A stretch of DNA of 41,978 nucleotides from a virus. The translations under genes were made by a program, and so were the position numbers. A model generated the notes under the pieces. That model was not told the DNA's origin. It saw only the letters and a list, made by a program, of their open reading frames with translations, and did no database searches. The stretch is from IMG/VR virus record IMGVR_UViG_3300009124_000036, positions 1 to 41,978 of that record; one strand, 5' to 3'. Positions 7,365-41,978 of this stretch are shown in pieces; position 1 is the first letter of the stretch, and each line of letters begins with the position of its first letter.

Positions 7365-9653
7365 TTATTTAAGAGCACGGAGCACTTTAGTGGCGTAGTT
7401 TGTACCTTCGCCATAAGATGCTAAAGCTTTTTGTAAGCTGTCGTGATCTTGTAACTTTTGCATTAATGTTATGTTTGCAATTGTATCGTAGTGTTTTTCG
7501 TGTAGATTTGGATTTATTTGTCCTGTACCATACCTACCATACAACTTTTTAATATCATCTGGGGTGGATACCTTTTTACCATCCCTATACATAACTCTAT
7601 ATTTTTCTATGTTTATTTTATCGTCGCCCTGTTGGATAAGAAGATCCATATACTGTTTTTCTTCATCGCCTAACATATCGTAAAACTTGCTACGGGTTTT
7701 AATGTCTTTTAAAGTGCTTGCAGTTATTTGCATAGGACCAAACGCCGATGAGGCTGCTTTCTTACGTTTGATGCCTGTAAATATATAGGGGTTGTCTTCA
7801 AACCCTTTTATTTCTACAGTTTGTATTGCAGATTTAATATCACCAAACCTACGACCAAAATACAAATCATCATCTATTGACGGAGGGGGTTGATCAAGAA
7901 ACCCTGAACCTTGCGAAGTGGGTGTGCCGGATATTTTGGGACTGTCTGGGCCAATTACCTGAGAAACAAACCCTCTATCTATTTCAGCTATACCACCTTC
8001 GTTCAAACCGACGCCGCCGCCGTACTTAGCTTGTCTGCGCTGTACTTCAGGTTTACCTTTGTCGTTTAACTTATCTAGGAATCCCTTGCCTTTTATCTTT
8101 TCGATTTGGGCAACTACTTCAGGTTCTATGTGGCGTTCACCATCAGAAAGTGCAACATCTACCATAGGTGCATCTTTGGGGTTTTTTACTTTCTTTTCAG
8201 CTTTTGCTACTAAGCTGTCAAGCATACCCTCATACTTTTCGTTGGTGGGTTGGTTTACAATAAACGAACCTTCCTTCACACTGGTAAATCTATTGTCTGC
8301 AATAGACTCTTGTTCGGTTACAGAGTCGGGGTCTTTGTTTGTGAAGCCGTTGGTTACGTTGCCGCCGGGAGCATATTCTATGCGTCCGCCTTCTGCAACG
8401 CCTCTAGCTTCTTGACCACCACCGTAGTCGCCGCCACCGCTGCTGCTGCCCATACCACTGTCTTTATCTTCTGACCTACCGCCACCACTAGCAACATCAG
8501 CTTTACCAAAATCCGCAGCAGATTTGTTAGAAGTAAAGCCGCCACCGCCCTGATTAGCTTGACTAGTAGCAGTGTTATCATGTGGACTTCCCATTCCGCC
8601 GCCCTTGCCCCAGCCAGTGTCAGGAGAATACACCTCAAATCCTCCACCGGGTCTGTCAAAAAATGAAAACCCAGCTTTTTCCAGCCCAGTTTTTGTTGTT
8701 CCGGCTGGCATGTTACTAAATGCGTACCCCGACATTGGATTGGTAACAGGGGACCAATTACCGAATGGATCATAGCTTCCAACTATACTGCCGCCACGAG
8801 TAGGATCTGGTCTGCCTTCTCCTCTAACTGTGAAGCCTTGAAAAATGCCTGAAGTAGCAAGACTTGGGTTAGGACCAAAGGGGTCTATACCAAGTAACGT
8901 TGCAACATTATATTTATTTTCTATTTGAGAGTACGTGACTTGCGGGTCTAACCCCATAGCTACGGCTCTACCGGGGCCATATGCAGTAGGTCGATTATAT
9001 AGCAGAGAAGTAATTAAAGCATCCTCATACGCATCTTGATCAACATTGGTAAACCCGCCTATGTTACCGCTTAGAGTATACCCTTCAACGTCAAACCCAA
9101 AAAGACCAGCAATTCTGCCCGGTATAGTATCGGCTGTCGGTTTAACTCCTACGAGTTGATTACCCATTAAACCCGTACTATAATCTTTGTTAACCTGAGA
9201 CTTTGATGCTATATCGGAAAGGTTTGCCATGTTAAGCTCGTACCCTAATTCCATCAAAGGACCAAAAAAACTGGGCATCATAGCCTGAATTTGTTGTGAT
9301 ACTCCTGTAGCCCTAACTGTTCCAGTCAAAGGGTTTACAGCTTCTGGAAAACCAAAGTAAGCTTCTGCTCTATCAGATATATAATCCTTTATAGCATCTA
9401 CATACCCCGATAGAGAAGAGGTAGCGGGTGTAGCGGAAGGAGCGGAAGTTGTCGGTGTACGAGGCTCTCTATCTTCACCCCCCACATCTCTTTCAACCGT
9501 TGTACCGACTTCGGCTGTTGCAGCGGCTCTGCCCGTTCCGATGGGGCCTATAGGAAACCCACTGCCTCTTCTACCTCTAGGGGCAAAACCCCCCTCTACA
9601 CTTGTTATAGTGTAGGGAAGCACTCTCAACCCTAGTGAAGAATAGTCAGCCAT
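7365..9653 (-). CDS. Virion protein with C-terminal lytic transglycosylase-like domain, 762 aa
   Basis: The N-terminal two thirds are Gly, Ser and Pro rich without a recognised fold, including glycine-rich linkers around residues 350-430. A Lys/Asp-rich middle (about 430-560) follows. The last ~160 residues resemble a lysozyme-like transglycosylase: catalytic-type Glu614 in TVEIKGFEDNPYIF, then SSAFGPMQITASTLK (GxMQI signature, about 636-650) and a C-terminal ASYGEGTNYATKVLRALK. It lies between portal and scaffold, where podoviruses often encode ejection or head-associated proteins. A role in local peptidoglycan opening during DNA entry is likely but inferred. Starts at ATG one base after the 76-aa gene. 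Confidence 0.72.
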   Translation of the reverse strand: MADYSSLGLRVLPYTITSVEGGFAPRGRRGSGFPIGPIGTGRAAATAEVGTTVERDVGGEDREPRTPTTSAPSATPATSSLSGYVDAIKDYISDRAEAYFGFPEAVNPLTGTVRATGVSQQIQAMMPSFFGPLMELGYELNMANLSDIASKSQVNKDYSTGLMGNQLVGVKPTADTIPGRIAGLFGFDVEGYTLSGNIGGFTNVDQDAYEDALITSLLYNRPTAYGPGRAVAMGLDPQVTYSQIENKYNVATLLGIDPFGPNPSLATSGIFQGFTVRGEGRPDPTRGGSIVGSYDPFGNWSPVTNPMSGYAFSNMPAGTTKTGLEKAGFSFFDRPGGGFEVYSPDTGWGKGGGMGSPHDNTATSQANQGGGGFTSNKSAADFGKADVASGGGRSEDKDSGMGSSSGGGDYGGGQEARGVAEGGRIEYAPGGNVTNGFTNKDPDSVTEQESIADNRFTSVKEGSFIVNQPTNEKYEGMLDSLVAKAEKKVKNPKDAPMVDVALSDGERHIEPEVVAQIEKIKGKGFLDKLNDKGKPEVQRRQAKYGGGVGLNEGGIAEIDRGFVSQVIGPDSPKISGTPTSQGSGFLDQPPPSIDDDLYFGRRFGDIKSAIQTVEIKGFEDNPYIFTGIKRKKAASSAFGPMQITASTLKDIKTRSKFYDMLGDEEKQYMDLLIQQGDDKINIEKYRVMYRDGKKVSTPDDIKKLYGRYGTGQINPNLHEKHYDTIANITLMQKLQDHDSLQKALASYGEGTNYATKVLRALK

Positions 9654-9654
9654 T

Positions 9655-9885
9655 TTATATATCTCTAGCCTTTACCGCCGCGTCGTAGTCGTCTTTTAAG
9701 CCTTTAAGCGTTTCCAGTGAAGTTATCTTCCCCTGCAGCCGGAACACTTCCAGTTCCGATCTGGCCCCCACCAACGCCCGAAGCGTCATCTGGATTTGCT
9801 CCTGCAGGAGCGTTTCCAGACTGTTCCATGCTTCCTTGTTGGTCACCAACGGGCTGACCTTCCGGGCCTGTTCCTTGTTGAGCAT
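9655..9885 (-). CDS. Small helical protein overprinted on the portal 3' end, 76 aa
   Basis: A well-formed helical, heptad-rich sequence (ALVGARSELEVFRLQGKITS) that overlaps the last 182 bp of the portal gene in another frame and continues past its stop. In the overlap the portal frame encodes a low-complexity Gly/Gln/Ala tail, whereas this frame gives a compact amphipathic protein. This argues the small frame is real. It could be a connector or head-completion factor. Function unknown. Confidence 0.65.
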   Translation of the reverse strand: MLNKEQARKVSPLVTNKEAWNSLETLLQEQIQMTLRALVGARSELEVFRLQGKITSLETLKGLKDDYDAAVKARDI

Positions 9886-11806
9886 TAGCTGCTAGTCCTT
9901 TCAGCATTTCGGCAAAGATTTGTGCTTCGTTTACATCGTTGACCAAGCTGTCAGGATCGATATCCTGTGCAATTGCAAGTTCGCGCATCAAATTGGGTAT
10001 CTTGATGAACGGTGCCAGCATGGGGTTGGATACGGTCTGTAGCAGGGTGGTTAGTCGCTGACTACGAACTTCTTTTTGCATCACGGCAGCAACGCCGCGA
10101 GGCTTAATTTCTAAATCACCTTCAATGTCTGGTGCATCTTCGTTAAACTGCATGTTCCACTGAAAATACGCTTCGCCCAGCGGCTTTAGCAGTGCATCAT
10201 CAATGTTTTTAATTACAGTCTTTAGGGATAAGCTTGCGCCACCTAAAAGCATTGATAAGCCGGATGCTGTGCGTCCTGTACCACTAACGCCTGTCTGTCC
10301 GTGCATAATAGAAGGTAAACCAGTCTCTTCGTCAGCAAGCTGTCGGCTAATCTGATACATCTGGATGTTTTCAGGTGCTGTGTTAGGAAACTTGAGGCCG
10401 TTAACTGCCGTACCAGATACCCCAGATTGACGGCGGAAAATCTTGCCGGGGAAAATATCCATGTTCTGTCCGGGAACCAAGCTTGCTTCATCTACGTCAA
10501 GAACTAAGTTACCAGCAAGAGCTAAGTTGTCGATTGCCATCCGAACGTGACCGTTCATCAGCATCTGTGCATCTTCCATGTTTTCCGCTACACCAACGCC
10601 CCACATTTGATATGGGTTAATCTCGTAGGGAAATACGTGAAAAGGAATACGAGCAGGAGTAAACGGATTTAACACGCAGCGAATAACTTCATCTCCGCAA
10701 ATCCATACATTGACCTGTACTTGATCCATCGGTCCCATACTAACGGGTACGTCCATACCGACTTCATTAGCCATCTTTGCGTCTAAAACACCCCAGTATT
10801 CTAGAACTTCAAAACGATTTTCTTGATAGTAGGCTTCCGTTTCATCTTCGCGGATAGTGTCTTCATAGTATTTATCTATGTAGTTTGAGCCTTTTGCAAT
10901 TACGTCTTCGATAGCTTCTTTGTAAAAGTATGGATGATTGATAAGTCCACGAAGCTGCTGCCTATTCATACGGTGTCGTTGAATGACGTATTCCGCGTCT
11001 TCTATGCTTGTTGCAGAAGGATCGGGATGAAAGTCCCATACAGAAACGTGCTCTAAACGAGGTACAATTTTTTCGTAAGGATTGTACTCCCTGTTTCCCT
11101 CTTCGTTCTTTTCCCATCTGTGCACACGCTTGTAAAAGTTAAACGGTCCTTTTACAATACCTGTACCCAAAAGTGCAGATTCAAAAATAGCACTGCGAAA
11201 TACATTTACAGCACTGGTATCCAGTAGCTGATCGTGAATTTGCTTTTCCATGTTTAAGGCGGCTTTTTGAGCAGGAGAAATCTGAGGCTCCCCCATTAAA
11301 GCCGGACCTTGTACTAATGGTGCACCGTTATACCTGTCCTTCAATCCACCTAAGAAGTCTCCTGCAGGTGATGCTTCCAGTGCTCCCGGCTCTAAGGTTC
11401 TACCATCGCCTTCATACCCATAAGGATCAACAATATCATCTAAGGGCGTTTTTAAGTGAGCGAATTCCGCGATACCTTCAGGAACAGGCGTAGGTTCGAT
11501 AACAAGCGGGAACTTTTTATTCGCAAACAAAATGTCAATGATCTGTCCGTATGCAGCCAAGACTTTTGTTTTGGTAATCTTGATGAATACCTTTGAACGT
11601 TCGGTTTCACGATACTGAGTTGTAGAATCGTAGATACCCCGAAAATTCTTAAACGCTTTTAGCCAACGCTGTTCATAAGCGTAGCGTCCGTTTTCAGAAT
11701 CTTCAAACTTTTTGCGAATATATCCAGCAAGACCCGGCATATCCCCTTCAGGATCAATAACCGCTACCTGATCATCATCTGGTGGTTGTAGGAAATTTTC
11801 AGACAT
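9704..11806 (-). CDS. Portal (head-tail connector) protein, 700 aa
   Basis: Large protein after the TerL region that forms the dodecameric portal through which DNA is packaged. The N-terminal pattern (RWLKAFKNFRGIYDSTTQYRE, then KVLAAYGQIIDILFANKKFP), the middle HVSVWDFHPDPSATSIEDAEY and the QTGVSGTGRTASGLSMLLGGA segment are typical of podoviral portals of this size. The C-terminus is a Gly/Gln/Asn-rich low-complexity tail that is overprinted by the 76-aa gene. Upstream neighbour is 8 bp away. Confidence 0.88.
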   Translation of the reverse strand: MSENFLQPPDDDQVAVIDPEGDMPGLAGYIRKKFEDSENGRYAYEQRWLKAFKNFRGIYDSTTQYRETERSKVFIKITKTKVLAAYGQIIDILFANKKFPLVIEPTPVPEGIAEFAHLKTPLDDIVDPYGYEGDGRTLEPGALEASPAGDFLGGLKDRYNGAPLVQGPALMGEPQISPAQKAALNMEKQIHDQLLDTSAVNVFRSAIFESALLGTGIVKGPFNFYKRVHRWEKNEEGNREYNPYEKIVPRLEHVSVWDFHPDPSATSIEDAEYVIQRHRMNRQQLRGLINHPYFYKEAIEDVIAKGSNYIDKYYEDTIREDETEAYYQENRFEVLEYWGVLDAKMANEVGMDVPVSMGPMDQVQVNVWICGDEVIRCVLNPFTPARIPFHVFPYEINPYQMWGVGVAENMEDAQMLMNGHVRMAIDNLALAGNLVLDVDEASLVPGQNMDIFPGKIFRRQSGVSGTAVNGLKFPNTAPENIQMYQISRQLADEETGLPSIMHGQTGVSGTGRTASGLSMLLGGASLSLKTVIKNIDDALLKPLGEAYFQWNMQFNEDAPDIEGDLEIKPRGVAAVMQKEVRSQRLTTLLQTVSNPMLAPFIKIPNLMRELAIAQDIDPDSLVNDVNEAQIFAEMLKGLAANAQQGTGPEGQPVGDQQGSMEQSGNAPAGANPDDASGVGGGQIGTGSVPAAGEDNFTGNA

Positions 11807-11814
11807 AGGTGTCC

Positions 11815-12024
11815 TTAATAGTCGCGTTCTTCAGCCAATTTCATTACTGAAGGATCAACTGCTTTCTTTGTCATCTTCTTTGGCATGTCTTCAGTCAAAA
11901 CACCCTGCTTTGCTTTGGTGTCGAACTCAAGACCTTCCCGATACAGTTTGTTGCAGCCCATCATGTCGTCAACTTTAGTGTTGTCGCTGTTCATAATGTA
12001 AGCTGGACCCATATTCATGTTCAT
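11815..12024 (-). CDS. Hypothetical protein, 69 aa
   Basis: Small Met-, Lys- and Asp-rich protein between the recombinase-like gene and the portal (gaps of 16 and 8 bp). Begins MNMNMGPAYIMNSDNTKVDD. A Shine-Dalgarno-like GGGAGAC lies upstream of the ATG. No domain recognised. The position suggests a minor head or packaging component. Confidence 0.65.
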   Translation of the reverse strand: MNMNMGPAYIMNSDNTKVDDMMGCNKLYREGLEFDTKAKQGVLTEDMPKKMTKKAVDPSVMKLAEERDY

Positions 12025-12040: not shown

Positions 12041-14311
12041 TTATGGTGTGTAGGAAATGAAGCCTGTTGCATCTTCCCCAGAACGAGCGGCTCCTCTCGC
12101 TTGGCGTAATCTTTCTGGATTAGAAAGAAAAGAGGTTGGTACATTTTGTATAGCATCCGGTACACGTATTGGTTGTGTCATTTGGGGTTGTGCTGCCGGA
12201 ACTACGGTGTCTGCGCTAGGAGCGGCAGGTTCGTTATTCTGAAACAAGTTTGGCTGATCTGCCATGATACGTTCGATAGGACGGGCTGAACCGGGATCAG
12301 CTACAGGAGATGCCATAGATTGCCCCGCCGCAATAACATCACTAGGAGCAATCGGAAGAAACTCTGTGGCTCCTGCTACTGTCCCTGCTGCACCAGCAAC
12401 AGGTCCGGGTAGTCCCAACGCCTCTGCTTGTTGAGTGACTGCGCTACGGGTTTGTTCTGCAGCGATAGCCGCCATACCAATACCTAGTGGTCCTGCAAGG
12501 ACTTTGAGTGGCTTTGCCATCTTGAGAGCCTTTGCAAGAAAGTCCTCGCCTGATGCAACTTGGGCTGCTTTCTTTTGTCCTGACCGTGCTTCTGCAAGTT
12601 TACGTTCTGCTTCGACAATCTCTGGTGCACGTTCTGCACGTTCTATCATCTTAGCTTCTGCTGCTGCAGACTTTTCCTGTGCAGCTAGTTCGGCTGTGGC
12701 TGCAGCCTCTGCAGTCTTTGCTGCCCGAAGCTGTTCGCCCTGTGCAATCTCTTCCGGTGTCGCTACTCTGGTTTCTACAGGTGCGCCAGACGGACGTGCA
12801 AGGGCTTCTGTTTCTGGATAGTTTGCGTTAAAATCTTCAGGTAGATCTAAGCGAAGTGCTTCACCCAACCCTTTTGCATCGGAAGCACCGACAGCATCTG
12901 CCATCATTTTTTCGTAGGCAAGAAGTATTTCACCGCGCTGCTGTAAGCCACCAATGTCTTCTACATCAGTATAGTAGCCTGTCATAACTTTGTCAAGTAA
13001 GCTATCACCTCCACCTTTATGGCTGATAATTTCACTTGCTAAGTCAGGACGACCAAGTTGGTTTGCAATGGCAGAAGCAGTTATACGTCGTAGATCTGTA
13101 TAACCAGAAGGTTTAGTCAGTAGTTTGTCTAAGACTTCTTTTGGTATTTTTGGAAAAACGTGTTTCTTTAAGGCTGCAGATATCTTTCCTGTAGACATGT
13201 CTGGAAAGAGTTCGCCTGTATCTCCTGCAGCATCGAAACGACGATCTAAAATTGCACGAAGAACCGGACCTGCAGGTTTGTCTGGCCCTTTTCCTTTACG
13301 ACCACCACCTGTAGCTACTTCTGGATCACGAGAGATACCTGCTTCTCTGTCGTAGTATGGACGTGCAGGACTAACTCGTACTGCAAGGTCGCGGCTTGTA
13401 CGCATACCTGCTAAGTCTTCTCCACGATAGCCAAGAAGGGACGCCATAACAGCATCCCTTGTAACTGGATCAGGAATATCGCCTATGCCTTCCAAAACCG
13501 ACTGGAGAACTTCTGGCGGTATGGCACCTTTTGCAAGTTTGCGAGTGCCTTTTGCAGCACCTGTACGAGACAGCTTTAAGTCGGTTACATTTGTTGTTGC
13601 TGTTCTAAACGGGCGAACAATATTCTTTCGTATATCGTCGCCAATACCGCCCGTCGGTGACTTAGACAATTCTTCAAATGAATCGAACGGCTGATTTAAA
13701 TCTATTTCTTTTTTAGACAGCTTTGCAAGGTTGTTTGAAATACCCAGAGTATTACGAGCAGGACCAATTACCTCACGAGAAAATGCAGTGTTAAACTTAT
13801 TGTAAAATTCTTTTGTATCGTCTAGTTCAGCAAGAAGGGGTTCATTAGGAACACCGTCGTTGTACATCTTTGCAATAAAAGCATCACGGATAGTATAGTT
13901 ACCCGTGTCGATACGCTGCTTTACTTCTTCTAAGGACGGAATGTTACCGTCAGGAAACAGGTTTGTTTGTACCTGACGAAAAGCATCTACAACCTTTTGT
14001 TCGTTTTTGGTTAGTTGTTGTGCCATCTTTTTTGATTCGGTTGTTGGTACATCTGCTGTCATGTTTTTACGAACAGCACTTACGACGGAAGTTATTTCTG
14101 ATTTGCTAGTTAAGGGTGTTCCAATAAAATCAAAATACGCTGTTATCTGCTTGTCGGTTAGTTTCTTAGGAACAGATACTTTACCTGCACCCTTCTTACC
14201 ACCAAACGCTTCGTACAAGCCTTCATCATCTTCAGGAATAGAACCTGCATCTATCATGTTTTGTAGATCTATGGCAGCACGTTCTATTACATCATTTAGG
14301 TCATCTGCCAT
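12041..14311 (-). CDS. Late protein with tyrosine recombinase-like domain, 756 aa
   Basis: Located between TerL and portal. Residues ~265-450 resemble a tyrosine recombinase catalytic domain. Box I is MASLLGYRGEDLAGMRTSRD (R296). A basic turn GGRKGKGPDKP (K339/K341) falls at the beta-hairpin Lys position. Box II is GYTDLRRITASAIANQLG (R408, with T405 where His is usual). IISHKGGG supplies H431 and MTGYY supplies Y446/Y447. R296-R408 spacing (112) and R408-H431 spacing (23) fit the family (XerD: about 99 and 23). The nucleophile Tyr is about six residues later than usual. The N-terminal 260 residues are helical. The C-terminal third is an Ala/Glu coiled-coil, a hydrophobic patch (LAGPLGIGMAAIAA) and a Pro-rich tail, unlike integrases. 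Whether it is an active recombinase or a virion protein reusing the fold is open. Confidence 0.6.
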   Translation of the reverse strand: MADDLNDVIERAAIDLQNMIDAGSIPEDDEGLYEAFGGKKGAGKVSVPKKLTDKQITAYFDFIGTPLTSKSEITSVVSAVRKNMTADVPTTESKKMAQQLTKNEQKVVDAFRQVQTNLFPDGNIPSLEEVKQRIDTGNYTIRDAFIAKMYNDGVPNEPLLAELDDTKEFYNKFNTAFSREVIGPARNTLGISNNLAKLSKKEIDLNQPFDSFEELSKSPTGGIGDDIRKNIVRPFRTATTNVTDLKLSRTGAAKGTRKLAKGAIPPEVLQSVLEGIGDIPDPVTRDAVMASLLGYRGEDLAGMRTSRDLAVRVSPARPYYDREAGISRDPEVATGGGRKGKGPDKPAGPVLRAILDRRFDAAGDTGELFPDMSTGKISAALKKHVFPKIPKEVLDKLLTKPSGYTDLRRITASAIANQLGRPDLASEIISHKGGGDSLLDKVMTGYYTDVEDIGGLQQRGEILLAYEKMMADAVGASDAKGLGEALRLDLPEDFNANYPETEALARPSGAPVETRVATPEEIAQGEQLRAAKTAEAAATAELAAQEKSAAAEAKMIERAERAPEIVEAERKLAEARSGQKKAAQVASGEDFLAKALKMAKPLKVLAGPLGIGMAAIAAEQTRSAVTQQAEALGLPGPVAGAAGTVAGATEFLPIAPSDVIAAGQSMASPVADPGSARPIERIMADQPNLFQNNEPAAPSADTVVPAAQPQMTQPIRVPDAIQNVPTSFLSNPERLRQARGAARSGEDATGFISYTP

Positions 14312-14314
14312 GAT

Positions 14315-16033
14315 CTAGTATCCGAATACTTCGTCTTGTGCTTTGTAGACGTGATTCTTGATTGCGCCTAATTGTTGGTGTATTGCAGAGTATCCACTCA
14401 TGCGTGTCATTACCATGTAGCGTAAAGCATCGTAGGCGTGATCTTCCGCTTTTGTGTCTACGTCTTCGCTATTCGTTTTAGATAGAGGTATTCCCGCAAG
14501 CTGCTTAACGGTATGCTGGCAGGTAGAAAATACTCGTAGGCGAGGTTCTTCTGTGTAAGGATCATTGCCTAATCTTCTGTGAACTTCCATCTTGCCTTGA
14601 ATACGGTTACGATCAGATGGCGTCCAGCGTACACCGCAACGCATCATTGTTTCTGCTATGGATGGGCCGAAACCTGTTTTGTTCCAACAAGACGAATCCA
14701 AAACAGTGTAGTGAGGTAAAGGATCTAGTTCCTCTACTTCTAGTATTCTATCAGCTAAATCTTCTGCTGTCAAGTGTTTTGCGTATAACTCACGATATAC
14801 CCAAATATTATTATCCCAATCAATAGCACCCCAAAGAACTGCAGACGGGGACGAATAGCCATAGTCCGCTGCTCTAATGCGAGGCCAATTGGTAGGTAAT
14901 TCGAAAGGTTCGACAACGTGTCTACTCCGTGAAAACTCTGGGAAGGCCGCTCCCTCTGCCACATCCCAATCCCCCTCTAGAAGTCTCTTCCGCTCAACTT
15001 CTGGGAGCGAACGCAACATGGCTTCGTATTGTCCGTCAGCCATGAGGTGGGGATTATCAGTCAGCCGTGCAGGAACAAACTTGCGGTAGAACAACGGCTG
15101 ACCTGCCTTCTCGTGACCTTTAGGCCACACAAAGGGCTTCATTGTATCTATGTCGTACGCAGCAAACGCTTCGTTTTCTGTGCGTGAGTCGATGTACATC
15201 TTTTTAACCCACCAGCCACCGACACCGCCGGGGTTGGCTGTACAACGCATGTATAGATTCTTTTGAAGTTCAGGATCTGTGGAACGTAGTCTAGAACGTA
15301 AATAGTCCCAGACGTAAGGAGTTGGGTATTGGGTTATTTCGTCTATGCCTATCCAGTTAAACGCTTGCCCTTGAAAACGGGTAACGTCCTTGTCTCTGTC
15401 TAGGTATGTAAACCAAATCGTGGCACCTGATGGAAAGACCCACGTTGATTTTGATTCGCGGAACTTTGCTCCGGGGAACGCCTTTGTATATAGTTGGCGT
15501 GACTTGTCTATCAGTTCGGTTAGTTCGTCGAGGGTGCGTCTCAGAAGAAGACCCCGGTGATTGGGATTATGGCAATAGCGTAGGGGATCAGCAAGTAGAG
15601 CAAATGACTTACCACCGCCAGCCGCTCCCCCATATAGGACATCTCGCTCACCCGCTGAAAGAAACTCTTCTTGAGGGCCGGGGTTAGCTTGGAAAACAAC
15701 TTCAGAATCACCAACAAGGTCGGAAACGGATGGGGGTAGAACGGAGAGATCTCCCTCATCGATAACGTTTGTTCCTTTTCCAGTGACTCCCTTTTCAACT
15801 CTTCCAATTGTTTCTTCCAGCTTTCGGGCATAACTTCTTTGTGCTTCTGCTTTCTTTGTAGCTTGTGTAGCTTTCTTCTTTGCAGCCCGTAGACGCTTCT
15901 GTGCCCCACGACGGGCACGTTCAGCGGTGGACAGTTGATAGGTTCGTTTAGCTGGTTTCTGCTGATCTGCTTGCTTGTCTGCCACGACACGCCTTTCCGC
16001 CACTAGCCATTTTTTTTCCGTATCTCTCTTCAA
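14315..16033 (-). CDS. Terminase large subunit, 572 aa
   Basis: ATP-driven DNA packaging motor and genome-end nuclease. Walker A is GGAAGGGKS (135-143) and Walker B is WIGIDE (227-232), followed by the coupling segment MRCTANPGG. The RNase H-like nuclease domain begins at AADYGYSSPSAVLW (D390) and has further acidic positions in VLDSS (~447) and EDHAYDALRYM (~538). The first ~110 residues are an unusually long basic, coiled-coil-like extension. The start is uncertain: a TTG at 16033 gives 572 aa. A GTG at 15985 has the better ribosome site (GGAAAGG, 6 bp upstream) and would remove 16 residues. Confidence 0.93.
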   Translation of the reverse strand: MKRDTEKKWLVAERRVVADKQADQQKPAKRTYQLSTAERARRGAQKRLRAAKKKATQATKKAEAQRSYARKLEETIGRVEKGVTGKGTNVIDEGDLSVLPPSVSDLVGDSEVVFQANPGPQEEFLSAGERDVLYGGAAGGGKSFALLADPLRYCHNPNHRGLLLRRTLDELTELIDKSRQLYTKAFPGAKFRESKSTWVFPSGATIWFTYLDRDKDVTRFQGQAFNWIGIDEITQYPTPYVWDYLRSRLRSTDPELQKNLYMRCTANPGGVGGWWVKKMYIDSRTENEAFAAYDIDTMKPFVWPKGHEKAGQPLFYRKFVPARLTDNPHLMADGQYEAMLRSLPEVERKRLLEGDWDVAEGAAFPEFSRSRHVVEPFELPTNWPRIRAADYGYSSPSAVLWGAIDWDNNIWVYRELYAKHLTAEDLADRILEVEELDPLPHYTVLDSSCWNKTGFGPSIAETMMRCGVRWTPSDRNRIQGKMEVHRRLGNDPYTEEPRLRVFSTCQHTVKQLAGIPLSKTNSEDVDTKAEDHAYDALRYMVMTRMSGYSAIHQQLGAIKNHVYKAQDEVFGY

Positions 16034-17004: not shown

Positions 17005-17200
17005 CGTTGTTTTCCGAAACCGACTTACAGCGACTACGTATTACAACTTCGAATACCTGTCGCTCGTAAATGTACGTTGCCATTTCATCGTTTCGCAACA
17101 TACACTCTTTTTCTGTGAGGTACGGACCTTCTGTATCACGTATTTCACGGCACAAATCTGGTCCAGTAGCTAGGCAGACAAGAATCCAAGATTCAAACAT
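16928..17200 (-). CDS. Small exported-type four-cysteine protein, first late gene, 90 aa
   Basis: Hydrophobic start (MFESWILVCLATGPDLC) and four cysteines spaced C-x7-C-x14-C-x24-C, then a Ser/Pro/Thr-rich tail. The cysteine spacing, the KEC-x-x-RN motif and the length of the Cys core parallel the 64-aa protein at 3379-3573, so the two look like paralogs. A strong AAGGAAA ribosome site precedes the ATG. It is the first gene after the main late promoter. Function unknown. Confidence 0.65.
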   Translation of the reverse strand: MFESWILVCLATGPDLCREIRDTEGPYLTEKECMLRNDEMATYIYERQVFEVVIRSRCKSVSENNDESTPPDTQKEGIDPATGTVLGTSV

Positions 17201-17318
17201 GTCTGATTTCCTTTTTTATGTTGTGGGAAGGTCAGTTTGTAGCCTCAAACCCCTAATGTCAAGCATATTGTGTTGGTTTTTGCCGGGATGTGCTAAGTAA
17301 ACCTCTGCCCACATCACA

Positions 17319-17347
17319 AGTATACCGTCTATAGCTATGTAAGTCAA
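17319..17347 (-). promoter_or_regulatory. Main late promoter, sigma70-type (TTGACT-17-TATACT)
   Basis: Minus-strand TTGACT (17342-17347), 17-bp spacer, TATACT (17319-17324), leading into the 90-aa gene, TerS and TerL. The leader of about 115 bp also contains a weaker TTGACA with TACAAA at 15-bp spacing (17236-17262). An inverted repeat (17355-17369) abuts the -35 side, a possible activator or repressor site. Confidence 0.75.
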
Positions 17348-17354
17348 CAAGAAT

Positions 17355-17369
17355 ATACCCATAGGGTAT
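17355..17369. promoter_or_regulatory. Inverted repeat ATACCC-ATA-GGGTAT (operator candidate)
   Basis: Perfect 6-bp arms with a 3-bp spacer between the divergent late (minus) and small-RNA (plus) promoters. Its core CCCATAGGGTA recurs exactly in the second control region at 23494-23504. A palindromic GAATATTC lies at 17401-17408. A common regulator binding both regions is inferred. Confidence 0.5.
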
Positions 17370-17408
17370 CTTTTTTACTAAAAAAAATAAATTTACCTAC
17401 GAATATTC

Positions 17409-17437
17409 TTGACAAATCGGAAAATTACCTATACAAT
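17409..17437 (+). promoter_or_regulatory. Sigma70-type promoter on the plus strand (TTGACA-17-TACAAT)
   Basis: Consensus TTGACA (17409-17414), 17-bp spacer and TACAAT (17432-17437). No plus-strand gene follows. Transcription would start near 17444 and meet an intrinsic terminator about 100 bp on, which points to a small RNA. Confidence 0.78.
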
Positions 17438-17490
17438 GGGGTTAAGACCCCCCGGGAAATAACCCATTACCCCCCCGGTTACCTCCAGCT

Positions 17491-17515
17491 ACCCCTACAC
17501 GTCGGTTTCATACCC
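17491..17515 (+). repeat. 25-bp direct repeat, copy 1
   Basis: Identical over 25 bp to 17578-17602, 87 bp apart start to start. It starts ACCCCTACAC, includes GTCGGTTTC and ends CATACCC. Copy 1 lies inside the predicted small RNA, copy 2 just beyond its terminator. Such iterons are common at replication origins or packaging sites. No function is assigned. Confidence 0.85.
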
Positions 17516-17524
17516 CTTCGGGAT

Positions 17525-17545
17525 ACCCCGTTGGGGTCTTTTTTT
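17525..17545 (+). terminator. Intrinsic terminator of the predicted small RNA
   Basis: ACCCC-GTT-GGGGT hairpin followed by C and a run of seven T (17539-17545) on the plus strand. Since no plus-strand gene lies upstream, its only visible client is the transcript from the 17409-17437 promoter. Confidence 0.75.
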
Positions 17546-17577
17546 GTCTAAACCCTGCCGGGGTAACCTGCCGGGGC

Positions 17578-17602
17578 ACCCCTACACGTCGGTTTCATAC
17601 CC
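17578..17602 (+). repeat. 25-bp direct repeat, copy 2
   Basis: Second exact copy of the repeat at 17491-17515. It is preceded by two tandem TGCCGGGG words (17556-17563, 17569-17576) and followed by CATATCGGTAACCCC. Confidence 0.85.
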
Positions 17603-17934
17603 ATATCGGTAACCCCTCAAATATAAAATTGCTGTCGAGATTGCATACAGATACCGGTACCCCCCGGGTGGCCCTTGTGTACCCCATAAGGGTGTCCCCC
17701 ATTGCCAATGCCGTGGATCACCACCGACAGACAAACCCACAAAACCGACGCGCATATTTTCCCCGCCTATATCGCGCCGTTTGTATCTTTTTTTTATTCC
17801 CCGTTGACACCTTGCCCATATAGAAAACCCACAAGGTAAGCTGTAGAGGTCAACATAACACACAAAACAAACACACCCGCCGCCGGATTTATCCCGCAAA
17901 TACAACCCGCAAAGCAAACATTCAGGTTGATGGC
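17603..17934. other. Non-coding part of the main control region
   Basis: No convincing gene. It holds GC-rich words (GATACCGGTACC near 17650), the inverted repeat ACCC-CATAA-GGGT (17681-17693) resembling the 17355-17369 operator candidate, one AACCGAC (17743-17749) and a lone TTGACA near 17803 with no matching -10. A 57-codon minus-strand frame (17582-17755) has a GGGGA site but runs through the repeats and is not called. Together with 17440-17602 this is the best candidate for a replication origin or packaging site. Confidence 0.5.
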
Positions 17935-17969
17935 AAAAAAGAACCCCGCCGGACTAGCCAAACGGGGTT
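17935..17969 (-). terminator. Intrinsic terminator of the early minus-strand operon
   Basis: On the minus strand the AACCCCG and CGGGGTT arms (17963-17969 and 17942-17948) form a 7-bp stem with an inner CCG/CGG, followed by CTTTTTTG. It ends transcription coming from the small early genes before it reaches the late control region. Confidence 0.75.
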
Positions 17970-18004
17970 AAGTTGGGAGGAAATGCGTCGGTTCGTCGGT
18001 TTCG

Positions 18005-18115
18005 TTACTGCCGGTAATCTTCCTTTGCAAGATCCCACAGTGCCGCAAATAGGCACCAGCAAGCAATCAAAACCCATGCCAGCAACACTAGCATGATCAC
18101 GTTAGCTATTGTCAT
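18005..18115 (-). CDS. Tiny membrane protein, 36 aa
   Basis: Too short for routine ORF calling. MTIANVIMLVLLAWVLIACW then CLFAALWDLAKEDYRQ: one strong transmembrane segment with a short charged tail. The ATG overlaps the end of the 81-aa gene (coding overlap 14 bp), consistent with translational coupling. Last gene before the operon terminator. Possibly acts on a host membrane protein early in infection. Inference only. Confidence 0.55.
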   Translation of the reverse strand: MTIANVIMLVLLAWVLIACWCLFAALWDLAKEDYRQ

Positions 18116-18347
18116 CGCTGGCCTCTTTAACTGTCAGGTTTAACCGTGCAATGGTGCGCGGGTTGTCGGTTGCATGGGTATAATGGTCAAAGCCCAAAGT
18201 TCGAAGCAATGCCTTTGCCGCCGATGCCTGTGTTTCGAGTGCTTCAATAGACTGCAAGATCAAATCGGCTTCGACTGTGGTGATAGCAACCACGCGTTTT
18301 GCGTCGGTTTCGAAATTGTCTTTATTCAGTGAAATTGTGCTTTTCAT
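18102..18347 (-). CDS. Hypothetical early protein, 81 aa
   Basis: The ATG at 18347 (MKSTISLNKDNFETDAKRVV) has a strong AAGAAGGAACC ribosome site and is chosen over the longest frame (to 18476), which would overlap the upstream regulator. Helical Ala/Leu/Glu-rich middle (EADLILQSIEALETQASAAK). An AACCGAC word is in its leader. No domain recognised. Confidence 0.65.
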   Translation of the reverse strand: MKSTISLNKDNFETDAKRVVAITTVEADLILQSIEALETQASAAKALLRTLGFDHYTHATDNPRTIARLNLTVKEASDDNS

Positions 18348-24396: not shown

Positions 24397-25594
24397 ACAG
24401 ATACTTGGTTTCTGTCTCAACGCTAATTTCTTTGGTAGTGTCAAGAACATTATCGACAGGACAATGTTTGAAAAAGAGATGCGTGACATATTTGACACGT
24501 TGACATATTCGCACACCAAATACGGAAAAGACTTAACTATCAATGAGTTAGCTAGTCTGTTCAATGACCGTAACCCTGCTATGCCAGATGCGACTCGCAA
24601 CAAAGTGCAAGAAACTATTGCAACCCTAGATGTTGGCAACGCTGACAATGCTGACTTGCACCTAGACTTGGTACACAATTTCTGGTTGCGTGATCGTGCG
24701 CGGCAGATAGGGGAAAAGGCAATTGAGATATTTACGGGCGACAGTGAAGAGTTCGGTGAGTTGCGCCGCCTCATTGAAACTGTAGAGGATGGTCGCATCA
24801 GTGACAAAACTACCTATACTAAAGTTGAAGATGACTTGGATACCTTGCTAAATGATGAGGCTGGTGATCCCGACTTCCCTTTCGGTTATGACCTGATCGC
24901 AGAAAATGTGACAGGTCTAGACAGAGGTAACTTAGGTATTTTGTTTGCACGTCCTGAAGTTGGTAAGACTACATTCTGTTGTTTCCTTGCCGCATCGTAC
25001 ATCAGGCAAGGTTTCAAGGTTGTGTATTGGGCGAACGAGGAACCAGCCCCAAAGATTAAGTTGCGTATCATCCAATCGTACTTTGGTTTGACGCGAGAAG
25101 AGATGGTCAGAGACAGAGTCAGCCTGTCGGTTAAGTACGCCGATGAGATCGCCCCGTTGCTTACCATTATGGATTCAGTCGGTACGTCGGTTGAAGAGGT
25201 CGATGAATATGCCAAGCTGAACAAGCCTGACGTTATGTTCTGTGACCAGCTAGATAAGTTTCGTATTGCAGGTGAGTTCAATCGTGGGGATGAGCGGCTC
25301 AAGGAAACCTATGTGTTTGCACGGGAAATAGCTAAAAGAAACAAGACCTTAGTGTGGGCGGTTAGTCAGGCAAACTACGAGGCACACGACAGACAGTGGA
25401 TTGACTATTCTATGCTGGACAACTCACGCACGGGCAAGGCTGGTGAAGCTGACATCATTATTGGTATTGGCAAGACAGGGTCTAGTGAGGTAGAAAATAC
25501 CGTACGTCACATTTGCATATCTAAGAATAAGCTGAATGGGTGGCACGGTATGATCAATGGTCAGATAGATATAGAACGCGGAATATATTACTGA
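24365..25594 (+). CDS. Replicative DNA helicase (DnaB/T7 gp4-like), 409 aa
   Basis: Hexameric helicase. RecA-like core with Walker A ARPEVGKTT (195-203), the NEEPAPK segment (224-230) and Walker B PDVMFCDQLD (288-297), then the LVWAVSQAN motif. The N-terminal ~150 residues are a DnaB-type helical domain. ATG has a good GAGGAACGAG site within the primase 3' end. Acts with the primase encoded just upstream. Confidence 0.9.
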   Translation: MSSYDPISIDKQILGFCLNANFFGSVKNIIDRTMFEKEMRDIFDTLTYSHTKYGKDLTINELASLFNDRNPAMPDATRNKVQETIATLDVGNADNADLHLDLVHNFWLRDRARQIGEKAIEIFTGDSEEFGELRRLIETVEDGRISDKTTYTKVEDDLDTLLNDEAGDPDFPFGYDLIAENVTGLDRGNLGILFARPEVGKTTFCCFLAASYIRQGFKVVYWANEEPAPKIKLRIIQSYFGLTREEMVRDRVSLSVKYADEIAPLLTIMDSVGTSVEEVDEYAKLNKPDVMFCDQLDKFRIAGEFNRGDERLKETYVFAREIAKRNKTLVWAVSQANYEAHDRQWIDYSMLDNSRTGKAGEADIIIGIGKTGSSEVENTVRHICISKNKLNGWHGMINGQIDIERGIYY

Positions 25595-25875
25595 TGGTAC
25601 ACAGAAATACATTGCGTAATCGTAGACTGCGTGAAAGCAGGGGACGGTGGCTTGATATATACAAGCGCAATAAGGGCTGTGAGATGTGTGGTTACAACGC
25701 TGATGCTACTGCATTGCAATTCGATCACATAGATAGGTCAACTAAAGTAAATTCCATATCAAACATGCGGCATTTTAATTTATCTACGTTAATTCAAGAA
25801 CTTAGAAAGTGTCGTATACTATGCGCGAACTGCCATCACATACATAGTGATAAGCAAAGGAAAGAAGATGAGTAG
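25594..25875 (+). CDS. HNH endonuclease, 93 aa
   Basis: Zinc-finger HNH nuclease: CEMCGYNADATALQFDHIDR (CxxC with DH), then CRILCANCHHIHSDKQ (C-x-x-C plus the N..H catalytic end). The ATG overlaps the helicase stop (TGATG), so the shorter frame is preferred over the start at 25540. Probably a free-standing homing-type nuclease inserted between helicase and exonuclease genes. A role in packaging or recombination is less likely at this position. Confidence 0.8.
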   Translation: MVHRNTLRNRRLRESRGRWLDIYKRNKGCEMCGYNADATALQFDHIDRSTKVNSISNMRHFNLSTLIQELRKCRILCANCHHIHSDKQRKEDE

Positions 25876-26215
25876 CGAATATAGGTATGTCAGAACCAAT
25901 TCAAAAGGTGTGCGGATATATCGTAGAGATACGAACGAAAGCCTAGACTATGTTACAAAATTTCTGGAAGACAGGAACATAGATTATGAGACTAGAATAG
26001 GTGGCTCTCTGATTTATATATACAATGATGAAGGTAAATGCTACGCTTATTACTGGACAACAGGAAGGTGGTCAGCGCATAAAGCCATTACACATAAGCA
26101 CTATAGTAGTAAAGGAATAGAAGACTTTACAGATCGGTTTTTAAACAGCAAAAAGGAAATTACGAATGAACATCCTGACCTTCGACGTGGAAACAACCCA
26201 CATCCACAAAGATAG
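25868..26215 (+). CDS. Hypothetical protein, 115 aa
   Basis: Tyr-rich, beta-type start (MSSEYRYVRTNSKGVRIYRR) and a central YIYNDEGKCYAYYWTTGRWS. ATG preceded by AAGGAAAGAAG, overlapping the HNH gene by 8 bp and the exonuclease by 50 bp. It may have entered with the HNH gene or be its partner. Function unknown. Confidence 0.6.
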   Translation: MSSEYRYVRTNSKGVRIYRRDTNESLDYVTKFLEDRNIDYETRIGGSLIYIYNDEGKCYAYYWTTGRWSAHKAITHKHYSSKGIEDFTDRFLNSKKEITNEHPDLRRGNNPHPQR

Positions 26216-26750
26216 TGGCGGCACTACTGCCCTGCCATACTTTGGAAACCGACTCGTATCCATCGGGTACAAGCGTCTGTCTTCACCCTACATACACTAC
26301 CACTGTTACTACCACGCAGATAGGCAAGCCCACGACTTTGCCCCTGAATTATTCCAAGAGGCACTTGACGAAGCTGACATAGTTGTGGGACAAAACATTA
26401 AGTTTGACTTGTCGTGGATACGAGAGTGCGGGTTTGTTTACGACGGTGACATCTATGATACGATGGTGGCGGAATATATTTTATCGAAAGCCCAGCGTTG
26501 GCCTCTTGGACTTGCTGCTCTTGCAGAAAAGTATGACGTTACCCGCAAGGAGAAAGACCTTGTTGAGCCGTATCTTAAAAGCGGTAAGACATTCTACGAT
26601 ATACCGTGGGAGATAGTAGAAGAGTACGGTAAAGCTGACGTACTTGCTACAGAAGAAATTGCAGTTAAACAGCTTGAAGCCTTTGGCACTACCTTTGAGG
26701 AACTATACAATGCAACGGACTTTGCTACCAACCTTGAGACTGTCGCTTGA
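26166..26750 (+). CDS. 3'-5' exonuclease (DnaQ-like, polymerase proofreading), 194 aa
   Basis: DEDDy exonuclease: Exo I FDVETT, Exo II GQNIKFDLSW, Exo III YGKADVLAT with the Y-x3-D pattern. In T7-like polymerases this domain is fused N-terminal to the polymerase. Here it is a separate gene that ends 40 bp into the polymerase gene. It probably supplies proofreading in trans or in complex with the polymerase. Confidence 0.88.
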   Translation: MNILTFDVETTHIHKDSGGTTALPYFGNRLVSIGYKRLSSPYIHYHCYYHADRQAHDFAPELFQEALDEADIVVGQNIKFDLSWIRECGFVYDGDIYDTMVAEYILSKAQRWPLGLAALAEKYDVTRKEKDLVEPYLKSGKTFYDIPWEIVEEYGKADVLATEEIAVKQLEAFGTTFEELYNATDFATNLETVA

Positions 26751-28251
26751 GATGACAGACGTTCTGGCTCGTATGGAGCGGAATGGCTTGAAGATTAACT
26801 TAGATACCCTAGAAGATATCCGACAGGAATACCAACAGGAAATGGATGAACTTGAGGTTCGCCTAGAACGCCTTGCACGGGATGCTATGGGTGACACCCC
26901 TGTCAACCTGTCTAGCCCCGATGACAGAAGCGTGTTGCTCTATTCACGGCGTGTTAAAGATAAGAAGGCATGGTCGCGTGTGTTCAACTTGGGGCACGAG
27001 ATGCGCGGCAACACAATGAAGCCCAAGATGCGTACACGGATGAAGCGTGGCGAGTTCAAGTCTGCCGTAAAGAACATGACTGAGGTTGTGTACAAGACAC
27101 GGGGTCAGCAGTGTGATGAGTGTAGGGGAGAGGGTCGATTTCATCCACGCAAGAAGGATGGCACGATAGGAAAGGCTGTTCGTGTCTGTCGGCGGTGTGA
27201 CGGGGCTGGTGTTCTTTACATACCTACACGGGAAGTAGCCGGATTCAAGCTGATACCTCGTGACCCAATGGATACGGCATCTGCAGGGTTCAAGACCGAC
27301 AAGGTCACATTGGAAAACCGACAAACCGACTTGTCTGGTGATGCCCACGAGTTCGTTGTAGCCTATGTGCGCTACAGTGCTTTGCGTACTTACCTGTCAA
27401 CTTTTGTAGAAGGAATGAAGAATAATGTTGACGCGAATAGTTTCATCCATCCAGAGTTCATGCAGTGTATTACGGCGACGGGTCGTCTTTCGTCTAGAAA
27501 TCCTAACTTTCAGAATATGCCGCGTGGAAGTACCTTCGCTATACGGAAGGTTGTCGAGAGCCGCTTCACGGGCGGTTTTATACTTGAAGGGGATTACTCG
27601 CAACTAGAGTTTAGGGTGGCTGGCTTCTTGTCTAAGGATGGGCAAGCCTACATCGATGTGAAGGATGGTACAGATGTTCACAGCTATACTGCAAGTGTTA
27701 TCGGATGCACACGTCAGGAAGCAAAGGCGCACACGTTCAAACCTTTGTATGGTGGTGTCAGCGGTACAGAAAACCAGCAACGCTATTACCGTGCGTTTAA
27801 GGAAAAGTATGAGGGCGTTACGGAGTGGCACAAGGAACTGCAGAAAGAAGCAGTGCGAACCAAAGTAATTACCCTACCCAGCGGCAGACAGTATGCTTTC
27901 CCATCTGCACGTTGGACTGAGTGGGGTACAGCTACAAACCGTACGGCTATCTGTAACTATCCAGTACAGGGATTTGCAACAGCCGACTTGTTGCCAGCCG
28001 CATTGGTTCGCCTAGATAAGATGATGCGATCAAGAAAATTAAATTCTGTAATCTGCAACACCGTACACGATTCGATTGTATTGGATGTACACCCAGATGA
28101 AAAAGAGGCTTGCATCAACCTATTAGCCTATGCTATGCAGAGTTTACCTGAAGAAACAGTTAATCGGTATGGTGTCGAGTATGACATGCCTGTCGGAATA
28201 GAATTAAAAATAGGCAAAAATTGGCTTGACTCAGAAGAAATAGAACTGTAA
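26710..28251 (+). CDS. DNA polymerase family A with DnaJ-like zinc finger, 513 aa
   Basis: Replicative polymerase lacking its own exonuclease domain. Palm and fingers motifs: A EGDYSQLEFRVAGF (D294), B TRQEAKAHTFKPLYGG (R335-G349), C NTVHDSIVLDV (H453, D454). Residues 135-167 hold two CxxCxGxG repeats (C135/C138 and C160/C163), a DnaJ-type zinc finger inserted between thumb and palm, as described for the HMO-2011 phage polymerase. The ATG has GAGGA 8 bp upstream and lies inside the exonuclease gene. A longer TTG frame from 26644 is possible. Confidence 0.88.
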   Translation: MQRTLLPTLRLSLEMTDVLARMERNGLKINLDTLEDIRQEYQQEMDELEVRLERLARDAMGDTPVNLSSPDDRSVLLYSRRVKDKKAWSRVFNLGHEMRGNTMKPKMRTRMKRGEFKSAVKNMTEVVYKTRGQQCDECRGEGRFHPRKKDGTIGKAVRVCRRCDGAGVLYIPTREVAGFKLIPRDPMDTASAGFKTDKVTLENRQTDLSGDAHEFVVAYVRYSALRTYLSTFVEGMKNNVDANSFIHPEFMQCITATGRLSSRNPNFQNMPRGSTFAIRKVVESRFTGGFILEGDYSQLEFRVAGFLSKDGQAYIDVKDGTDVHSYTASVIGCTRQEAKAHTFKPLYGGVSGTENQQRYYRAFKEKYEGVTEWHKELQKEAVRTKVITLPSGRQYAFPSARWTEWGTATNRTAICNYPVQGFATADLLPAALVRLDKMMRSRKLNSVICNTVHDSIVLDVHPDEKEACINLLAYAMQSLPEETVNRYGVEYDMPVGIELKIGKNWLDSEEIEL

Positions 28252-41915: not shown

Positions 41916-41978
41916 CTGTCTCTTATACACATCTCCGAGCCCACGAGACGTAGAGGAATCTCGTATGCCGTCTTCTGC
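41916..41978. other. Illumina Nextera adapter (sequencing artefact)
   Basis: 41916-41934 is the Tn5 mosaic end CTGTCTCTTATACACATCT. 41935-41949 is CCGAGCCCACGAGAC. 41950-41957 is an 8-nt index (GTAGAGGA). The rest matches the P7 flow-cell sequence. This is read-through into library adapter and not phage DNA. Genuine sequence ends at 41915. Confidence 0.97.

Follow-up and report, generated by a model that had tools for sequence, protein, structure and literature searches.

A divergent tyrosine-recombinase homolog of exchangeable type between TerL and portal in HMO-2011-type marine phages

The known roles of tyrosine recombinases are those of integrases and of chromosome resolvers, and the question raised by this locus is what a protein resembling one does among the head and packaging genes of a phage. 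The window, i.e. the whole stretch of 41,978 nucleotides analysed here (IMG/VR record IMGVR_UViG_3300009124_000036), carries a 756-aa gene that a preliminary description, made from the letters alone, had placed between TerL and portal and credited with a tyrosine-recombinase-like domain. The ORF was found to be real and located on the minus strand, with all of the quoted motifs present, and its position in the head and packaging cluster was borne out by Pfam and PHROG matches of the flanking TerL and portal genes. The genes at and around this position, hereafter the slot, are as follows:

14315 to 16033, minus strand: TerL, directly upstream of the slot gene (phrog_979, 1.2e-61; Terminase_6N, 7.4e-9)
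12041 to 14311, minus strand: slot gene, 756 aa, ATG start (ORF and translation; homologs at the same slot)
11815 to 12024, minus strand: 69-aa gene between the slot gene and the portal, always there in close relatives
9704 to 11806, minus strand: portal (SU10_portal, 7.9e-26; phrog_332, 1.5e-76)

A gap of 3 bp separates the TerL stop from the start of the slot gene. The window TerL was nearest to those of Roseobacter phage CRP-2, Puniceispirillum phage HMO-2011 and pelagiphages, and the window was therefore assigned to the HMO-2011-type marine podophages; in the HMO-2011 and CRP-2 genomes, the slot between TerL and portal was empty. Homologs of the window slot protein were found in IMG/VR (40 in one search and further ones in another), and the order TerL, slot gene, 69-aa gene and portal was observed in every homolog contig reaching both neighbours, a check that the preliminary description had proposed. 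Downstream of the portal, positions 7365-9653 encode a 762-aa protein without a Pfam match, which is 33-72% identical among relatives whose portals are 71-100% identical, and whose C-terminus resembles a lytic transglycosylase (FGPMQIT). The right end of the window (41917-41978) corresponds to an Illumina Nextera/P7 adapter, CTGTCTCTTATACACATCTCCGAGCCCACGAGAC-index-ATCTCGTATGCCGTCTTCTGC, and not to phage DNA.

Direct searches with the window protein alone were negative in each of Pfam, PHROGs, PDB sequences and isolated phages. The PF00589 profile, suggested at the outset as a check, thus did not match it directly; however, when 53 slot proteins were scanned (that of the window and 52 others), 19 matched Pfam Phage_integrase (best 5.1e-23) and 21 matched the phrog_1 integrase. 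An iterated profile, seeded with five of the Pfam-positive slot proteins (Z = 20000), reached residues 266-440 of the window protein at 2.5e-9 before its inclusion. None of the 2658 decoys compared with this profile reached 1e-3 or better, except for the window gene's own copy, a partial homolog (L038) and an integrase annotated as such in MW202701. The core profile returned nothing but unrelated weak matches from PDB sequences, and its hhalign comparison with single slot relatives or with the L044-type alignment yielded probabilities of 2-4%; the homology therefore rests on the many-member iteration. At the level of sequence, these searches confirmed that the ORF at 12041-14311 carries a predicted divergent tyrosine-recombinase catalytic domain, with homology established via intermediates. 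The domain and its presumed catalytic positions, with conservation counted in 27 window-type homologs (26 of which extend to H431 and Y447), were located as follows:

12956 to 13516, minus strand: tyrosine-recombinase catalytic domain, residues 266-452 (iterated profile, 2.5e-9 before inclusion; Foldseek top matches)
13424 to 13426, minus strand: R296, box I arginine (27/27 homologs)
13295 to 13297, minus strand: K339, beta-hairpin lysine (27/27)
13088 to 13099, minus strand: T405-D-L-R408, box II, with Thr replacing His (R408 in 27/27; T405 as Thr in 26 and Ser in 1)
13019 to 13021, minus strand: H431, box III His/Trp position (26/26 of those reaching it)
12971 to 12973, minus strand: Y447, presumed nucleophile (26/26 of those reaching it; local pLDDT <50)

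R296, R408, H431 and the tyrosine, on whose conservation the preliminary description had staked the domain, were thus kept in every homolog reaching them. Its two less precise assignments were each narrowed to one residue: of Y446/447, Y447 was invariant and Y446 often Phe, and of the basic residues K339/K341, K339 was invariant and K341 varied. Moreover, profile-aligned columns placed R296, K339 and R408 on the family columns. The only catalytic residue missing from the window type was the box II His, whose replacement by Thr405 had been correctly read. The residue at this position differed among slot types, with a His present in L089, L092 and L093. Among 34 clusters of slot proteins (<60% identity), the box I Arg was found in 32/32, the box II Arg in 32/33 (one cluster lacked it) and the hairpin Lys in 25/34, so that about one cluster in four varied at the latter position. 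Across the tyrosine recombinase superfamily, a His in box II is not invariant; in view of its absence here, we refer to the window protein as a divergent homolog rather than a canonical member.

The AlphaFold2 model of the core (pLDDT 79, pTM 0.73) showed, in order, a helix, the Arg, short strands, the Lys, helices, the box II helix, the His and the Tyr helix, a succession that agrees with a recombinase catalytic domain, although the Tyr region was modelled with low confidence (pLDDT <50). When this core was compared with known structures, as had been proposed, recombinases ranked first but with weak E-values: lambda Int, VchIntIA and XerH headed the Foldseek matches in the PDB (E 0.07-0.20), and viral integrases those in BFVD (top three, E 0.003-0.006, prob 0.98-0.99). 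The modelled fold supports the recombinase identity, but E-values this weak fall short of proof. Two further regions were delimited on the models:

13562 to 14014, minus strand: helical domain, residues 100-250, in a position resembling that of a core-binding domain (AlphaFold2 core, pLDDT mostly 80-95)
12554 to 12757, minus strand: long helix / Ala-Glu coiled coil, residues 519-586 (full-length AlphaFold2 model, DSSP)

From its placement in the model, we infer a core-binding role for residues 100-250. Overall, the window protein resembles tyrosine recombinases and phage integrases (PF00589; lambda Int, XerH, VchIntIA) in its domain homology via intermediates, its R-K-R-H-Y order and, with weaker support, its predicted fold, whereas it differs from phage integrases by having no Pfam match, a Thr at the box II His, an H431-to-Y447 spacing of 16 residues versus about 10, a long C-terminal tail, a location in the packaging cluster and no recognised lysogeny gene. 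As judged from its sequence, it is a divergent tyrosine-recombinase homolog and not a canonical phage integrase.

A fold may be kept while its chemistry is lost, and the preliminary description had offered a structural protein that co-opted the fold as one of its two readings. The missing box II His is consistent with such a structural or DNA-binding protein, as are the cluster devoid of the box II Arg and the variable hairpin Lys. In the window family, however, R, K, R, H and Y were all kept, and the catalytic domain was the most constrained part of the slot protein, with dN/dS (NG86) values of ~0.07-0.13 versus ~0.13-0.48 in the tail. Such strong purifying selection on the domain (dN/dS ~0.1) makes a merely structural role unlikely, and the conserved chemistry, together with the stronger constraint, argues for an enzyme. 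We therefore disfavour loss of chemistry, which we regard as improbable, and infer from these sequence data that the slot protein is probably an active enzyme.

The occupancy of the slot was surveyed on the basis of TerL, with loci binned by TerL identity and slot proteins assessed with a strict recombinase profile, then with a later iteration. In the HMO-2011-type marine phages related to the window, the slot nearly always held a protein of 540-1050 aa, and all close relatives in the survey had a slot gene. At TerL identities of at least 80%, 51 of the 53 loci passed the strict profile, and the two others (L062 and L065) passed the later iteration; at 68-80%, 10 of 11 loci passed and L075 did so later. 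A recombinase was found in the slot of 6/22 loci at 58.5-68%, and of 0/23 below 58.5%. The recombinase itself was far from constant: in phage pairs with TerL at least 95% identical, the recombinase domains were less than 35% identical in 38% of pairs, and in the L044 and L016 phages, whose TerL proteins are 99.8% identical, they shared 31% identity. The slot is thus a fixed position at which hypervariable recombinase types are freely swapped, a new finding that goes beyond the preliminary description. In more distant relatives, the same slot encodes large proteins without a detectable recombinase (L101:8593-10008, L104:3720-5885, L108:1470-2702 and L005:5222-6826), among them an SGNH hydrolase in phage phiM6, which suggests that the slot accommodates cargo in general.

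Outside the catalytic domain, the helical, coiled-coil, hydrophobic and Pro-rich regions had been described beforehand as unlike integrases; the tail extends over 250-500 residues in slot proteins. Overall, the window protein joins its tyrosine-recombinase domain to a tail with coiled-coil, hydrophobic and disordered parts, and has the following terminal modules:

14018 to 14311, minus strand: optional N-terminal extension, residues 1-98 (blastp of the segment against slot proteins)
12305 to 12553, minus strand: C-terminal Ala/Gly-rich hydrophobic module, residues 587-669 (C-terminal profile; hydropathy)
12044 to 12304, minus strand: Pro-rich tail ending in TGFISYTP (low pLDDT; C-termini compared)

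The N-terminal extension was missing from most homologs, and relatives of it occurred on other recombinase types (L057 and L071). The C-terminal hydrophobic module was common to L044-, L058-, L067- and L072-type proteins according to the C-terminal profile, with the remaining slot types bearing an Ala/Gly-rich segment of their own. Similar short C-terminal peptides were seen in other slot proteins (DNFLTMQP, SFLYGGIVR and GFIQP). The tail's likeness to virion-associated proteins is not accompanied by any annotated domain match. A C-terminal module common to several types and an N-terminal extension that crosses types indicate that heads and tails have been recombined at a fixed slot. Swapping this extreme at a single slot might suggest a self-mobilising cassette, whose recombinase mainly drives the exchange of its own module between phages. 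The conserved fusion to shared tail modules points beyond mobility, however, and no inversion-type or flanking repeats were found around the slot gene, which leaves this explanation with very little probability.

Swapping is also a habit of temperate phages, in which integrase types are often exchanged, and the slot protein might be an ordinary integrase encoded in the late cluster by chance, with each swap changing the attachment site. This would agree with the recombinase homology, and with the absence of a second recombinase from the relatives G001 (52.7 kb) and G002 (54 kb), which have the slot recombinase only, while in G011, a relative with no slot gene, an ordinary integrase of 370 aa is encoded elsewhere in the genome, in line with what has been described for the group (PMC9038755). 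G001 is probably complete, because it bears a 141-bp direct terminal repeat; its stretch that is missing from the window reads as tail or structural-looking genes. However, in the window ORFs and the remainder of G001, no repressor- or excisionase-like gene was recognised, in agreement with the earlier statement that the gene is not beside a repressor. A prophage form was sought without success: 385 genomes of one class yielded no match, and the closest TerL-bearing bacterial contigs examined carried no slot recombinase, although such negative results weigh little. Moreover, neither the late-cluster location nor a 250-500-residue tail is typical of integrases, and we consider a chance-placed temperate integrase unlikely. 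Both the window (26166-28251) and G001 encode the exonuclease and polymerase parts of a DNA polymerase in two overlapping frames, with a CxxCxGxG zinc-finger-like stretch in the polymerase ORF, and in both the helicase gene is followed directly by a small ORF of HNH type (25540-25875 in the window).

No cognate DNA site of the slot recombinase was found, and there was no tRNA or Rfam match. A non-coding region of ~900 bp upstream of the packaging operon (17180-18120) contains several CGTCGGTTT copies, together with a direct repeat of 39 nt whose copies are 87 bp apart. The CGTCGGTTT repeats (17.2-18.1 kb) were considered as a site for the recombinase; they were present with three recombinase types in close relatives and absent with the window's type in distant ones. 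Since they follow the phage clade rather than the recombinase type, they are unlikely to be its site, and the region may be a packaging or replication site.

Among known systems, VLF-1 of baculoviruses and bracoviruses and the phage polyvalent proteins are the closest precedents, and neither is the same. VLF-1 is a lambda-integrase-family protein located at nucleocapsid ends, which binds cruciform DNA, is present in virions and serves particle formation, and whose catalytic Tyr is needed for infectivity (PMC6669607, PMC3649998). It belongs to an unrelated virus, with an unrelated architecture, and is a conserved core protein, whereas the slot protein, whose place in the virion would be a prediction, is hypervariable. 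Polyvalent proteins (PMC5512222), like the N4 virion RNA polymerase and P1 DarB, recall the slot protein as large multidomain proteins encoded near late genes, with an enzymatic domain and predicted ejection; of these features, the slot protein shares its large size, its proximity to late genes and a putative enzyme domain. It differs from polyvalent proteins in that no MuF or metallopeptidase domain was among the Pfam families matched by the window protein or the 53 slot proteins, and the words integrase and recombinase are absent from the polyvalent-protein paper (PMC5512222). The ejection protein gp44 of 80alpha, encoded by a portal-adjacent gene, has a proposed role at the ends of the ejected genome, where it would favour circularisation (PMC7290940); the likeness is limited to gene position and proposed post-ejection role, gp44 being a non-enzymatic DNA-end binder and the slot protein a recombinase homolog. 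Within the same wider phage group, the tyrosine-recombinase gene int of HMO-2011-type phages lies upstream of the replication module (PMC9038755), and the slot gene instead has TerL and portal as its neighbours on either side. When the literature was searched for tyrosine recombinases in the virions of tailed phages, nothing on point was returned, and a tailed-phage tyrosine recombinase within the packaging cluster, fused to a long virion-type tail, appears to be undescribed.

The VLF-1 precedent, together with the position of the slot gene directly behind TerL, would suit an enzyme of the packaging stage, which is not ejected but stays in the producing cell or at the packaging vertex, where it resolves branches and multimers in replication DNA for TerL. 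Acting on the phage's own DNA, however, gives no obvious reason for domain swapping between near-identical phages, and more distant HMO-2011-type phages manage without a slot recombinase; we therefore regard a purely packaging-stage role as unlikely, though less so than a temperate integrase. The reading that we favour, with about an even chance of being correct, is that of an active divergent tyrosine recombinase whose tail anchors it to the packaging machinery or the virion and which acts on DNA at packaging or after ejection. The slot protein would be made late, together with the packaging and head proteins, and its long C-terminal tail would join it to the packaging machinery or the virion; the strand-cleaving domain may then act on DNA at genome packaging or just after ejection, and the swapping of types would change its target, be it a site of the phage itself, of the host or of a rival phage. 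In favour of this tail-tied recombinase, we counted the domain homology, the R-K-R-H-Y conservation, the Foldseek ranking, the slot synteny, the purifying selection, the type swapping, the shared C-terminal module and the lack of a second recombinase in G001 and G002. Against it, we counted the Thr at the box II His, the weak Foldseek E-values, the poor Tyr model, the negative single-relative profile-profile comparison, the lack of a cognate site and the tail without an annotated match. It overlaps with the packaging-stage enzyme, and the two differ in carriage into the next cell.

More tentatively, the slot proteins might be recombinases of a separate class, delivered by the virions of lytic phages that abound in the sea, in which a constant packaging/ejection tail carries a rapidly exchanged head that acts in the next cell, whether on the phage genome that has just entered, on the host chromosome or on a rival phage. 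If the slot protein does act in or from the virion, it would be a phage counterpart of baculovirus VLF-1, and its activity would be a new one for ejected phage proteins. The rapid exchange of types among near-identical phages, in a group reported to dominate marine waters, opens the question of its target to direct testing.
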